DNA of 64,000 bases, from the NCBI RefSeq assembly GCF_000205165.1, contig NZ_GL883865.1, positions 1-64,000 on the forward strand, given 5' to 3'. This document shows, in pieces, positions 23,312 to 42,315 of the stretch (positions within the stretch are counted from its first letter, which is position 1; each line of letters begins with the position of its first letter). Below the pieces are notes generated by a model, which ran no database searches, had not been told where the DNA came from, and saw only the letters and a program-made list of their open reading frames with translations. The translations under genes were made by a program, and so were the position numbers. Source of the DNA: Paraprevotella xylaniphila YIT 11841 (GTDB lineage: Bacteria; Bacteroidota; Bacteroidia; Bacteroidales; Bacteroidaceae).

Positions 23312-24280
23312 ATGAAACACGTCATCATAGCCGGAGGAGCCGGATTCATAGGTTCCCATCTTTGCGAATACCTGCTACATAAAGGTGATAGGGTCATCTG
23401 TCTGGACAACTTCCGGACGGGACATCCCAAAAACGTGTCAGCCTTAACGAACCACCCATACTTCAAATTAGTGGAACACGACATCACCATGCCCTATATG
23501 ATAAAAGGTATCGATGAAATCTATAATCTGGCTTGCCCGGCTTCTCCCATACACTATCAGGACTCCCCCATTGAAACCACCAAGACTTCGGTCATCGGCA
23601 CGCTCAACCTGTTGGAACTGGCACGCGAAAACCATTGCCGGTTCCTCCAAGCCTCTACCAGTGAAGTCTACGGCGACCCGGAAGTCCACCCACAGCCCGA
23701 AAGTTATTGGGGACATGTCAACCCGAACGGCATCCGTTCCTGCTATGACGTGGGCAAACGCTGTGCCGAAAGCCTTTGCATGGACTATCACCGGAGATAT
23801 GGCGTAGCGGTGAAAATCATCCGCATCTTCAACACCTACGGGCCGCGCATGGCCTGTGACGACGGACGTGTGGTTTCCAACTTCATCCTGCAAGCCTTGC
23901 AAGGCAAAGACCTCACCATCTACGGCAACGGCATGCAAACCCGGAGTTTTCAATACGTGGACGACCTGATTCAGGGCATGGAACGTATAATGTCCACCCC
24001 GGACAGCTTTACCGGACCGGTCAATCTCGGCAATCCGGAAGAACATACTATCCTGGAATTTGCCGAACGAATTCTTGAACTGACAGGAAGCCGGTCACGA
24101 ATGGTATTCCGTCCTCTTCCTGCCGACGACCCGAAACGGCGCAATCCGGACATCACATTGGCACGGCAGGCATTGGACTGGCACCCCCGGATATCCCTCC
24201 GTGAGGGATTGCAACAGACCATCGCCTACTATCGTAACCTTTTGGCCGAAAGCCCATCACAAAATATCTCCCGACCATGA
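23312..24280 (+). CDS. uxs: UDP-glucuronate decarboxylase (UDP-xylose synthase)
   Basis: A 322-residue extended short-chain dehydrogenase that converts UDP-glucuronate to UDP-xylose. Visible: NAD-binding [15 protein letters not shown] at the N-terminus, [13 protein letters not shown] (typical of UXS), STSEVYGDP, the catalytic YxxxK in [22 protein letters not shown] and [11 protein letters not shown]. The start at 23312 directly precedes the Rossmann strand; an ATG at 23213 lies before the promoter. Its stop overlaps the next gene by 4 bases. As first gene of the cluster it probably supplies the pentose donor for the glycosyltransferases. Confidence 0.9.
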
Positions 24281-26691
24281 ACAAGCACGTCCCTTCCATA
24301 TCCGTCTGCATGGTGACTTACAATGCGTCACCGTTCTTGCGTGAATGCTTGGACAGCATCCTGTCCCAGACATTCTCCGATTATGAACTGCTGATTGTGG
24401 ACGATGGCTCCACAGATGATACTGTGGATATTATCCGTTCTTATCCGGACAGAAGAATCCGGCTCATTCGTCACCGGCACGACTATATTGCCTCCCTGAA
24501 CCTTCTGTACAACAATGCACTCGGCAAATACATTGCCCGTATGGATGCGGACGACATAATGGTCAGCGACCGTTTACAGGCTCAATACGAATATATGGAA
24601 GCGCACCCCGAAACCGACATCTTGGGCGGGCACATGCACTGTTTCAATGCCGGGGAGTACGATTGCATCCTGCCTGCGGGCACGGACATCACCATGCCTC
24701 AAATGCTAGAACAATGCTATGTAGCCAATCCCACGTCTTTCATCCGCAGGTCAAGTTGGGTGTCGCACCACCTGTCCTACCGTAGCGAAGGCATTTACGC
24801 CGAAGACTACAACCTGTGGTTGGATGCCCTGTTGGGCGGATTGCGTATCCGCAATCTGGACAAGATTGTGGTACACTACCGTTTCAATCCTGAACAAATC
24901 AGTTGTAAGTATAAGGAAATCCAAGCAGCCCACGCCATGGCCTTGAAGGACAAATACGGCCGGTTATGGGCCGAAAAGGAACAAGCCGTAGCACTCGAAG
25001 AGGTGGAAATTCCCCTCAGCAATCTCCCGCTTACCGTGGTCATACCTTTTTATAATGAAAGGGAAGAGGTGGGGAACACTTTGGAGAGCATCCGGCAGAC
25101 CGTCGGGGACGAAGTGGAGGTCATTCTCGTGGACGACTGTTCCGATGATGGATGGGACTATGTCGCCTGCGCCCGGCAATACGGGGCGCATTACATCCGT
25201 AACTCCATCCGCATCGGGGCGGCCGCAGCCAAGGAAAAAGGCATCCGCAGCGCACGTAGCCCTTACTTCCTCCTGTTGGATGCCCACATGCGTTTCTACA
25301 TCTCCGGCTGGCACCGGATTCTGTTACGCCTTTTGCAGGAAAACGACCATCGTTTGCTTTGCTGCCAGACCCGCGTCCTGCAAAAGGGAGAGGGCCGGAT
25401 AAAAGACACGACGGACATCCGCACTTTTGGGGCATACCTGTCTTTCCACGGAGGCGAGACCATCCCTTCCGTTTCATGGCTTTGCCGCGAGAAGGCCCTT
25501 CATCTTACGGACAACCGGATTCCTTGTATTCTCGGTGCAGGATATGCCGGGAGCAAAACCTATTGGGACAAGCTGAAAGGTTTCCAAGGATTGGTACATT
25601 ACGGCTGCGAGGAACTCTATGTAAGCCTGAAGGCGTGGTTGGAGGGCGGAGGCTGCCGCCTTGTGCCGGAAGTGGAAATCGGCCATATCTATAAAGACCG
25701 GTTCTCCTACACCGTCTATCCATCGCAAATCCTGTACAATTATTTGTTTGTGGCCGAGGTGCTCTTCCCCACCTCATTGAAGTGCAAGACATTCGCGTTG
25801 GCCTGGTTGCGGAACGGGGATGCCTACGGAAAAGCCCTGAAATGGATGGAATGGTACAAGGCACGCAACGAAGGACTGAAATCCTTTTTCCGTACCTTCC
25901 AAGGACATGACTGGCCTTTCGTAATGGGCATCAACCGGCAGGTCAGCCGGGAGATGGAGAAAGAAATCGACCGGAAGTCCACCTCCTTGGCGCATATCGT
26001 ATCAGCGTGCCTAACCCGTTGCAGGCAAGTATCCACCTATGGGCTGATGGACGGACTGACGGGATACGTCCTGCTGTTTTGGACTTACTTCCGCTATTCC
26101 GGCGAAACACGTTATGAAGACGAAGCCACGGAGTGTTTCAACCGAGTATGCGAAGAAATCCCCAAGGGAGAACTGCCGTTGACTTTCCGAAACGGGATAT
26201 TCGGTATCGGTTGGGCTTTCATCTACCTGTGGGAACAAGGGTATGTGACGTATGAGGAAGTAGAAGAGGAATTGGCAGAGGCTGACCGCCGTGCCTTGTC
26301 GCTGTCTCCCCTGCGCCTTACGGATTTGTCCCTCGAAACCGGTTTGGGCGGCCTGTTGCTTTATCTCACCGCCCGGATAGGCCATCAAAAGAGGATGCAC
26401 GTTCCCGTCACATTTCCGGAGACCTATATCCACGAAACGGTGGAAGCCGCGAAAGCGGCCTTGGCAGTCCGTCCGGAAAAGCCGGACGCCCGTTGGGTGT
26501 CCGTGCTGATGTTGGCCGCCTTGTTAGAGCAAGACGATTGGGCTACCCTCCCGTTGCTCGTCAGTGATATTACGGATGTGCCCGATTTCCTTCCCAAGGA
26601 CGAAGCATTTTGGACAGACGGCCTGTCGGGCGTAGCCGGTTATGCGTTGAATTTAATTCACTTTAAAAATATATGCCATGAAGTTGAGTAA
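24277..26691 (+). CDS. Fusion: GT2, GalNAc-transferase-like GT and LanC-like domain
   Basis: An 804-residue, apparently cytosolic protein with three parts. Residues about 4-225 form a GT2 domain ([33 protein letters not shown]). Residues about 250-490 form a second GT-A domain ([77 protein letters not shown]). Its DAH, gating and acceptor-end motifs resemble polypeptide GalNAc-transferases (GT27). Residues about 590-800 are LanC-like alpha-toroid ([39 protein letters not shown]) but lack the Cys-Cys-His zinc ligands. It probably glycosylates the Ser/Thr-rich precursor, with the LanC-like part binding the leader or holding substrate. The 3' end overlaps the radical SAM gene by 14 bases. Confidence 0.82.
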
Positions 26692-41191: not shown

Positions 41192-41196
41192 TTTCC

Positions 41197-42315
41197 ATGG
41201 AAAAAGAATATGACCTTATCATAGTGGGCAGCGGCTTATACGGCTGCGTCACGGCTTATCTGGCACATCAGGCCGGATGGCGTTGCTTAGTCATCGAAAA
41301 ACGGGCTTTCACCGGTGGAAATATCCGCGATGAAATACGGGAGGGTATCAATGTACATTCATACGGGCCTCACGTCTTCCATACACGCCATCAGGAAGTG
41401 TGGGACTTTGCCAGCCGATTTACCCCGTTCAACCATTTCCGTTATTGCCCTCTGGCACGATATGGCGGCAAAATGTACAACTTGCCGTTCAACATGCACA
41501 CTTTCTACCAATTGTACGGGACCCAGACTCCGGAAGAAGCCGCATTGCGGTTACGGCAAGAGCAAGGGCTTTACCCCCATCCCCGGAACCTGGAGGAAAA
41601 AGCCGTCTCCATGGTAGGCCGCACGATGTATGAAACCCTGATTAAAGGATATACCGAGAAACAATGGGGACGGAAAGCCACGGAACTCCCTCCATTCATC
41701 ATCGAACGCCTGCCCCTGCGTTTCACTTTCGACAACAATTATTTCAACGACCCTTATCAAGGAGTTCCCATGGCAGGCTACTCACCTTGGGTGGACAAAA
41801 TGTTGGAGGGCACGGAAGTACGGTTGAATACCGATTTTCTCGCCGACAAGGACTATTGGATGAAGAAAGCCGGACATGTCTTATATACCGGAGCGATTGA
41901 TGCGTTTTTCGACTACCGCTTGGGGGCACTGGAATACAGAAGCCTGACTTTCGAGCATGTTTTATTCGAACAACCCAACGTACAAGGCATCGCAGTCATC
42001 AACGAAACGGACAGCCGGATACCCTATACCCGAAGCATCGAACACAAGCATTTCGCCTTCGGCACACAACCGGTCTCCATCGTCACCCACGAGTTTCCAC
42101 AAACATGGGACAAAGACCGGGAACCTTTCTACCCCGTCAATGATGAAAAGAACAACACGCTGTACCGGCAATACCACGCATTGGCGCAACGGGAATGCCC
42201 CCACATTACATTCGGAGGACGGTTGGGACTGTACCGTTACTTCAATATGGACGAAACCATCAAAAACGCTTTGGAACAATGGGAGGTCTTAAAAACGAAA
42301 TTGCTTCCGGCTTGA
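41197..42315 (+). CDS. glf: UDP-galactopyranose mutase
   Basis: A 372-residue flavoenzyme that interconverts UDP-galactopyranose and UDP-galactofuranose. It has the FAD-binding LIIVGSGLYGCVTAYLA, EKRAFTGGNIRDE, YGPHVFHT, MYNLPFNMHTFYQL, GYTEKQWGRKATELP, YTGAIDAFFDYRLG and GRLGLYRYFNMDE signatures of Glf. Start 41197 precedes the Rossmann strand directly, 5 bases after the LanC-like gene. Being last gene in the cluster, it suggests that galactofuranose is part of the product. Elsewhere Glf serves capsules and O-antigens, but no such genes are adjacent. Confidence 0.95.
   Translation: MEKEYDLIIVGSGLYGCVTAYLAHQAGWRCLVIEKRAFTGGNIRDEIREGINVHSYGPHVFHTRHQEVWDFASRFTPFNHFRYCPLARYGGKMYNLPFNMHTFYQLYGTQTPEEAALRLRQEQGLYPHPRNLEEKAVSMVGRTMYETLIKGYTEKQWGRKATELPPFIIERLPLRFTFDNNYFNDPYQGVPMAGYSPWVDKMLEGTEVRLNTDFLADKDYWMKKAGHVLYTGAIDAFFDYRLGALEYRSLTFEHVLFEQPNVQGIAVINETDSRIPYTRSIEHKHFAFGTQPVSIVTHEFPQTWDKDREPFYPVNDEKNNTLYRQYHALAQRECPHITFGGRLGLYRYFNMDETIKNALEQWEVLKTKLLPA

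Follow-up and report, generated by a model that had tools for sequence, protein, structure and literature searches.

The operon at positions 23312-42315 of a 64,000-nucleotide stretch of Paraprevotella xylaniphila YIT 11841 (contig NZ_GL883865.1, positions 1 to 64,000; the whole stretch is hereafter called the window) is predicted from its sequence to make at least one secreted, O-glycosylated peptide modified by a radical S-adenosylmethionine (rSAM) enzyme, with the second of its two precursor peptides as the substrate of O-glycosylation. We assign this reading a probability of about two in three; the chemistry of the product, its sugars and its biological role we infer. That rSAM modification, glycosylation and C39 export belong to one pathway for a ribosomally synthesised and post-translationally modified peptide (RiPP) is supported by the conserved linkage of the genes and by the co-variation of a glycosyltransferase domain with a Ser/Thr/Pro-rich tail of the precursors. 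Both the domain, which resembles polypeptide N-acetylgalactosaminyltransferases (GalNAc-Ts), and the tail were found in this analysis and are absent from an earlier note on the same DNA. That note had proposed one secreted, crosslinked and glycosylated peptide; the single pathway is supported, but neither LanC-like domains acting as enzymes nor O-glycosylation of both precursors is.

The genome holding the window comprises 3.79 Mb in 87 contigs. The operon consists of 13 genes rather than the twelve counted previously, all on the + strand and with every frame open; the coordinates, common strand and operon-like spacing given earlier were confirmed, neighbouring genes either overlapping by 4-14 bp or being separated by gaps of at most 63 bp. 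The features, in gene order, are as follows.

23312..24280, + strand: UDP-glucuronate decarboxylase (UDP-xylose synthase, UXS), matching human UXS1 (4gll) at E 3.1e-112
24277..26691, + strand: GT_A, a protein of 804 aa with a GT2 domain (aa 1-240), a GT27 or GalNAc-T-like domain (about aa 246-560) and a LanC-like domain (about aa 575-804)
25012..25956, + strand: the polypeptide GalNAc-transferase-like domain of GT_A
26678..27976, + strand: rSAM/SPASM peptide maturase (PF04055)
27996..28193, + strand: precursor 1, 65 aa, with a GG leader and a 35-aa core holding 6 Cys and no Ser or Thr
28248..28574, + strand: precursor 2, with a GG leader and a 78-aa core holding 11 Cys, 24 Ser/Thr and a Ser/Thr/Pro tail
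28638..31538, + strand: outer-membrane barrel 1, a paralogue of barrel 2 with a CarboxypepD_reg-like N-terminus (Pfam matches weak, under cut-off)
31542..34430, + strand: outer-membrane barrel 2 (PF14905, 33 bits), its AF2 model resembling TonB-dependent transporters
34436..35977, + strand: GT14 (Branch) glycosyltransferase, xylosyltransferase-like (PF02485, 78 bits), its C-terminal part without known family
35982..38165, + strand: C39 peptidase-containing ABC exporter (PF03412, PF00664, PF00005)
38162..38590, + strand: small membrane protein following the C39 exporter
38584..40425, + strand: GT_B, with an N-terminal GT2 domain (PF00535, 105 bits) and a C-terminal domain without known family
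40427..41191, + strand: stand-alone, weakly LanC-like protein of 254 aa, with no Pfam family above cut-off
41197..42315, + strand: UDP-galactopyranose mutase (UGM; UDP-galactofuranose supply; PF03275, 247 bits)

The UDP-xylose synthase, the UDP-galactofuranose-forming mutase and the C39 exporter (PF03412 and PF00005) of the earlier note are clear from these matches, and both precursors show a GG|F junction followed by a Cys-rich core.

Pfam models divide GT_A into two GT2 domains and a marginal LanC-like domain. When the second glycosyltransferase domain was compared with solved structures, GALNT2 came first (E 1.7e-11) and the 15 best sequences were polypeptide GalNAc-transferases. With a profile of 19 sequences of the domain, the 16 best PDB sequences were all GalNAc-Ts, animal and Toxoplasma (family GT27; best E 2.7e-18), and the alignments to GalNAc-Ts mostly spanned about 230 residues, versus 90-120 for the bacterial GT2 enzymes listed. 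The first glycosyltransferase domain of GT_A and GT_B, which served as controls, had GT2 enzymes as their matches, chondroitin synthase among them, and not a single GalNAc-T at E≤0.001. Residues D335, H337, E446 and H470 of GT_A are invariant in 19/19 aligned sequences, D335-x-H337 aligning with the GalNAc-T DxH motif, E446 with the glutamate of GGEN and H470 with the histidine of GHx[FY]; Asp209, His211 and His344 are given as the metal-site residues of GALNT1 (PMC4202792). The metal-site motif pattern matches 28 of 30 proteins, and the other two keep the motifs by eye. The AF2 model of GT_A has a mean pLDDT of 89.6, and Foldseek lists GalNAc-Ts for it from rank 5 on. The middle domain of GT_A can be described as a GT27-type catalytic domain with the DxH and GHx[FY] metal motifs, for which transfer of GalNAc to Ser/Thr would be a candidate activity. 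No ricin-type lectin family was matched in GT_A, the LanC-like domain occupying that place.

The profile of this domain alone (A3) was scanned over genomes of the order, of the family and of a phylum sample, and the domain was found in 4/384, 21/399 and 1/395 genomes, respectively, the genome of the window being among them each time. In the genome scans no more than the 4 or 5 top candidates of each genome were scored, which makes counts of places lower bounds. The A3 scans yielded at least 30 places with the domain; 29 of the 30 have an rSAM, C39 or TIGR03891 gene no more than 10 kb away, a raw count with no background rate set beside it and including one locus (L151) where the rSAM match falls inside the same open reading frame (ORF) as the domain. 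The thirtieth, L149, lies at a contig end and adjoins a GG precursor with a TTPTPTPSSTTPTP tail. The contexts comprise the clade of the window, a cluster scoring above the cut-offs of TIGR04148, TIGR04149 and TIGR04150 (L148), a locus with TIGR03891 (L150) and two loci with another leader type (L122 and L149); the domain seems to serve RiPPs specifically and to be transferable from one RiPP class to another. At L151 (3052-5442), a single 796-aa ORF matches both glycosyltransferase domains of GT_A together with the rSAM enzyme, reflecting either a fusion or an assembly join. L148 (2929-17997), where a GalNAc-T-like/LanC fusion is accompanied by two fusions of GT14 with GT2 and by further genes, is perhaps the most elaborate glycosylated relative.

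A search of species-representative genome contigs with the rSAM enzyme returned 34 relatives, 12 of which (L005-L010 and L012-L017; rSAM identity 35-42%) have GT_A, rSAM and barrel genes grouped in an identical or almost identical order. In one of them, L006 of the cultured species Prevotellamassilia timonensis, GT_A, rSAM, precursor, barrel and C39 genes follow one another. An rSAM alignment (A1) was also scanned at E≤1e-80 over 393 genomes of the order and 399 of the family, matching 14 and 37 genomes, respectively, the window's own included. The 60 neighbourhoods fetched after these scans partly repeat the first locus set (L004 and L088 are the same contig) and hold several loci per genome, four coming from G629 and three from G659. 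Of 61 rSAM neighbourhoods, counting that of the window, 22 combine GT_A, rSAM, precursor and barrel genes, several of the 22 sharing one genome; this recurrence exceeds chance. Each of the 22 GT_A loci encodes a Cys-rich precursor with a GG leader and a barrel belonging to the subfamily seen in the window, and such a barrel is present in only 2 of the 39 rSAM loci without GT_A. A GG precursor adjoins GT_A in every one of the 22 loci, the reverse of the situation, glycosyltransferases never linked to precursors, that the note had named as damaging to its proposal. The other rSAM relatives belong to less elaborate clusters, in which a C39 exporter and an outer-membrane barrel of a different kind are frequent. 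A C39 exporter was found in 9 of the 22 GT_A loci, only 12 of which extend more than 2 kb past the last barrel. The nearest named relative at the operon locus is a Paraprevotella metagenome-assembled genome (rSAM 88% identical); on its 4362-bp contig (L004/L088), most of GT_A and part of UXS are missing and one barrel is reduced to its two ends, through decay or misassembly.

Since the core of precursor 1 has no Ser or Thr, only precursor 2, which ends in a hydrophobic C-terminus (GMMGFF), could be O-glycosylated on these residues. The calculated monoisotopic mass of its core without modifications is about 7848.94 Da. Precursors were chosen by eye from candidate lists, and 30 from the GT_A clade (L088, a contig without GT_A, contributing two) were compared with 34 others (including L122 and L124). 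The GT_A-clade precursors have longer cores (median 73 residues vs 42.5), a Phe directly after GG (30/30 vs 3/34), a Ser/Thr/Pro-rich tail and a hydrophobic C-terminus (29/30 vs 8/34). With a tail defined as at least 8 Ser/Thr/Pro within 15 residues, a threshold set after the sequences had been seen, tails were present in 22 of 28 loci with the GalNAc-T-like domain and in 2 of 28 without it (L130 and L145; Fisher p 7e-8, a value that overstates the association because the loci are related). At a threshold of 7 the counts become 25 and 4 of 28, and at 9 they become 20 and 1. These counts exclude L124 and the two precursors of L088, place L122 in the domain group and take in five loci that the domain scan had brought up (L011, L148, L149, L150 and L151); L152, L153 and L154, with no recognisable precursor, stand outside every tail count. 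The rSAM tree does not contain L148, L149 and L150, which have no rSAM of this family, and it is the only comparison in which L017 counts among the loci lacking a working domain. It offers 4 independent contrasts; tail and domain go together in 3.7 of them on average and against each other in 0.0.

Single loci also carry weight for the link between domain and substrate. The domain is encoded as a separate gene in L011, L122 and L149, and all three have the tail; L109, L113 and L119 have a GT2 gene without the GalNAc-T-like domain, and none has a tail (5-6 of 15). At L017 (7157-9460) the domain is degenerate, with D335 replaced by N, E446 by D, H470 lost and H337 kept, and only a marginal match to the PDB is left (GalNAc-T10, E 0.0012). 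The rest of that cluster looks intact, and its precursor has no tail (at most 2/15) while Asn is kept at position -3 of 7 of its 9 Cys. This locus makes the link between enzyme and substrate directly testable.

The CX3CX2C motif of the maturase and seven further Cys, the spacing of which we take to be of SPASM type, are invariant in 15/15 aligned sequences, in keeping with the SPASM maturase proposed earlier; the Pfam SPASM model itself gave no match. Three curated rSAM families scored under their cut-offs (CefB NF038107, 157/600 bits; TIGR04463, 162/525; PapB, 116/340). Asn stands at position -3 (NxxC) for 9 of the 11 Cys of precursor 2 and 3 of the 6 of precursor 1. Across the GT_A-clade precursors the motif is found at 151 of 214 Cys, against 55±5 in shuffled sequences (z 18), and in the other precursors at 33 of 167 (z 0.9). 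N-x-x-C would therefore be a candidate for the unit acted on by the rSAM enzyme, with a crosslink predicted there, although the enrichment is only suggestive of a thioether or other crosslink in the product. In the four tree contrasts, NxxC changed in the same way as the GalNAc-T-like domain in 0.4, in the other way in 0.1 and not at all in 3.5. N-x-S/T sequons are not enriched in the precursors (45 vs 53±6 in shuffles), and N-glycosylation sequons were discarded as sugar sites. Neither precursor matches TIGR04149. In two rSAM/C39 clusters, L109 and L119, a GT2 protein, a LanC-like protein and an unknown protein of 458 aa are each encoded by a gene of their own, and the NxxC precursors lack a tail; these clusters perhaps represent an unfused form of the GT2-LanC part.

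Among solved structures, the GT14 enzyme matches human peptide xylosyltransferase 1 (XylT1) first (E 2e-8), and a profile of five relatives matches XylT1 at E 1.8e-22, followed by core-2 N-acetylglucosamine (GlcNAc) transferase at 1.1e-15. The Branch domain is shared with both of these enzymes and the C-terminal part differs. Relatives occur in L104, in L124 and twice in L148, where they are fused to a GT2 domain. UXS, which accompanies this predicted xylosyltransferase in the window, adjoins the GT_A relative in L017 and is present as a fragment in L004. Given the proximity of GT14 to XylT1, the clear identity of UXS and its recurrence in L017, xylose on the peptide is a plausible prediction; UGM, in turn, suggests the use of galactofuranose. 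No relative of the C-terminal part of GT_B was found in the 60 loci scanned, and Pfam finds no LanC-like domain in it.

Three multi-domain glycosyltransferase proteins bearing LanC-like domains had been described in the earlier note. The glycosyltransferases are present, but a LanC-like domain is recognisable in GT_A only (PF05147, 23.4 bits vs a cut-off of 23.2; profile match to NisC, E 1.8e-4). The profile of this domain aligns weakly with the stand-alone 254-aa protein (hhalign Prob 80, E 1.3e-5, over 70 columns) and does not match the C-terminus of GT14. No zinc ligands were seen among the conserved columns of 19 GT_A LanC-like domains, and Pfam detected no dehydratase (LanB) family in the 13 proteins of the operon, on which grounds LanC cyclisation, and with it a lanthipeptide reading of the operon, was rejected. 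The LanC-like domain of GT_A probably binds the peptide, in the position that a lectin domain occupies in animal GalNAc-Ts.

The presence of a C39 exporter implies cleavage at the GG site. The small membrane protein, previously called HlyD-like, matches no HlyD family; relatives lie directly after C39 in 5 other loci, and it may perhaps be an adaptor without the long TolC-docking hairpin. The twin barrels are paralogues, 50% identical. For the AF2 model of barrel 2 (mean pLDDT 76, pTM 0.68), the 50 Foldseek matches listed are all TonB-dependent transporters or receptors, with modest TM-scores (0.33-0.50 by target); AF2 and Foldseek agree on a plug and large barrel fold, and Pfam Plug reaches only E 0.063. 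With such a fold, the barrels could serve in uptake or as receptors just as well as in secretion. In L093, three precursor-type ORFs alternate with their own barrels, which hints at cognate peptide-barrel pairs. A fixed pairing of one precursor with one barrel, suggested by this order and by the two of each in the window, was rejected because other loci do not follow it.

In the pathway we propose, the rSAM enzyme would make a crosslink at each N-x-x-C unit of the precursor Cys blocks, and the GT27-like domain of GT_A would add the first sugar to Ser/Thr of the tail, as in mucin-type O-glycosylation, while the LanC-like part holds the peptide. GT14, fed by UXS, would add xylose in this strain, and further extension of the glycan, perhaps with galactofuranose, might fall to UGM together with either GT_B or the first GT2 domain. 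Going by the known function of its family, the C39 exporter would remove the leader at GG and export the product, which the TonB-transporter-like barrels could pass across the outer membrane, take back or provide immunity against. A broader proposal, which we consider evenly poised between true and false, is that mucin-like RiPPs are a product of some Bacteroidales: an Asn-x-x-Cys block crosslinked by the rSAM enzyme would be followed by a Ser/Thr/Pro tail O-glycosylated by a GT27-type domain and here xylosylated by GT14, and the GalNAc-T-like module would have been joined to RiPP maturation genes of at least three kinds.

Should the glycosyltransferases instead build a chondroitin- or capsule-like polysaccharide, merely neighbouring the RiPP genes or polymerising on lipid, the resemblance of the GT_A domains to the K4CP chondroitin polymerase would be accounted for, as would UXS and UGM, which we take to be common in polysaccharide clusters. 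We think this unlikely: GT_A is invariably adjoined by a GG precursor and an rSAM gene in the 22 loci, the GalNAc-T-like part is found without the first glycosyltransferase beside tailed precursors (L011 and L122), and Pfam detects no flippase, polymerase or initiating transferase among the operon genes. Similarly improbable is a placement of the sugars on the Cys/Asn repeat block through S- or N-glycosylation, with the Ser/Thr/Pro tail as a spacer. The first GT2 domain of GT_A does resemble the SunS S-glycosyltransferase (PDB 7msp, E 1.7e-9; TIGR04195, 41 bits), NxxC is strongly enriched, and L109 and L119 combine NxxC with separate GT2 and LanC-like genes in the absence of a tail; yet it is the tail, and not NxxC, that follows the GalNAc-T-like domain on the tree, and the lack of sequon enrichment speaks against N-glycosylation. 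Glycosylation of the tail and of the Cys/Asn block may both be true, for different domains of GT_A. A lanthipeptide-like product, in which LanC-like domains close thioether rings, has very little probability. It could draw on the LanC signal in GT_A and on L150, where a GalNAc-T-like/LanC fusion accompanies a thiopeptide-type bacteriocin biosynthesis gene (TIGR03891, 204 bits), but besides the missing dehydratase and zinc ligands of the operon, no zinc ligands were seen by eye in L150, and three Bacteroidales clusters have LanC-like proteins likewise lacking the zinc motif, as described in section 3.2 of PMC10352776. The remaining alternative concerns role and is compatible with the O-glycosylated peptide proposed here: the same biosynthesis could yield a scavenger or signal re-imported through the barrels rather than a bacteriocin. 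The TonB-dependent transporter fold favours it, as does the same broad barrel family in related rSAM clusters without GT_A (PF14905 in 9 of 10 barrels scanned, out of 26 candidates); thioether crosslinks, however, would block Cys ligands, and an immunity receptor or exit channel explains the barrels equally well, so that we hold this role possible but rather doubtful.

Several observations weigh against the reading of the operon as a pathway for an O-glycosylated peptide. The top Foldseek match of GT_A is the two-glycosyltransferase polymerase K4CP, and the TM-scores of GT_A with GalNAc-Ts are 0.27-0.32 by query and 0.40-0.50 by target. Six of the 28 loci with the domain fall under the tail threshold (L093, L100, L101, L116, L148 and L150), that threshold was chosen after the fact, and four contrasts cannot reach a p under 0.125. 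Among the 12 GT_A loci with sequence past the last barrel, 9 have C39 and 3 do not (L090, L102 and L116, all of genome G629). UXS is rarely a neighbour in relatives, appearing only in L017 and as the L004 fragment, and a paralogue 60% identical lies elsewhere in the genome; UGM has a paralogue 53% identical elsewhere, and no counterpart in the 60 loci scanned. UXS and UGM were accordingly dropped as essential parts, given the paralogues and their rarity as neighbours.

GT27 enzymes that carry out mucin-type O-glycosylation are known mainly from eukaryotes. GT_A shares with the animal and Toxoplasma GT27 GalNAc-Ts a catalytic domain of about 230 residues, the DxH, GxE and GHx[FY]RxxxPY motifs and a presumed Ser/Thr/Pro substrate; it differs in being bacterial, in the GT2 domain in front and the LanC-like domain behind, and in that no ricin-type lectin domain was found. 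Glycocins of the SunS type (the sublancin family) resemble the operon in having a GG-leader peptide, a C39 transporter and a dedicated peptide glycosyltransferase. They differ from it in family score (TIGR04195, 40.9/350 bits), in the GT27-like second glycosyltransferase domain of the operon and in its rSAM enzyme. The nearest curated rSAM families, CefB and TIGR04463, share a regular Cys spacing (period 5 in several relatives, 6 in precursor 2), but the operon enzyme scores far below their cut-offs and the operon adds glycosylation genes. L148, which is of the TIGR04148/TIGR04149/TIGR04150 GG-Bacteroidales type, carries the GalNAc-T-like/LanC and GT14-GT2 fusions; the operon differs from that system in its precursors, which miss TIGR04149, and no pseudo-rSAM was found in it.

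The gene combination as such is already known, since BAGEL4 areas of interest with rSAM and LanC (and GlyS) have been listed in Bacteroidales (Fernandez-Cantos et al. 2023, PMC10352776). In the available part of that source, these areas share with the operon GG leaders, rSAM, peptidase-containing (PCAT/C39) transporters, outer-membrane proteins and LanC-like proteins without zinc motif near carbohydrate-active enzymes, and several of the clusters likewise have no membrane-fusion protein. Glycosyltransferases are noted there without being analysed, and the same part mentions no GalNAc-T-like or XylT-like domain, Ser/Thr/Pro tail, NxxC rule or link between glycosyltransferase and tail. PDB 8uhv is tied to a Toxoplasma O-glycosyltransferase by PMC11074326. 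Prokaryotic GT27 labels exist at the level of annotation, in L. reuteri food isolates (PMC12741103), one Aneurinibacillus (PMC7996765) and the M. smithii protein u24 (PMC10939349); the available descriptions, by which rather than by sequence they are set apart here, tie none of them to a RiPP precursor, tail or cluster. No description of GalNAc-T-like or xylosyltransferase-like enzymes in RiPP clusters was found among the titles and abstract openings listed by the literature searches. If the proposed pathway is true, it would constitute a bacterial counterpart of mucin and proteoglycan initiation, perhaps with host-like glycopeptides on the surface of gut bacteria, and would define a group of glycopeptides from these bacteria that can be recognised in genomes by a simple signature, namely the NxxC block, the Ser/Thr/Pro tail and the GalNAc-T-like domain. 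It would also connect gut bacteria with mucin-like structures in a way that can be tested, and offer peptide-directed glycosyltransferases of possible use in E. coli.

A plasmid origin was rejected, as no relative of GT_A was found in 72,556 plasmid records (E≤1e-30), and so was a viral one, three pattern matches for the GalNAc-T-like domain in viral contigs all failing confirmation; the precursor DNA has no near match in phages. One further gene precedes the operon by 190 bp, its membership being uncertain.

22366..23121, + strand: possible regulator, 251 aa

It has no Pfam family above cut-off and is presumably LuxR-like, by resemblance; a single relative lies close to another GT_A-type locus (L151, E 7e-30). 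A promoter-like match was found at 22300-22331, such matches numbering 6 in the window vs 2.4 expected, which is not significant. Further upstream, positions 5687-18327 of the window form a defence island of low G+C (about 34% at 10-16 kb), with a type ISP restriction-modification protein, a PvuRts1I-like endonuclease with an SRA domain, a GmrSD-like protein and an IS1595-type transposase.

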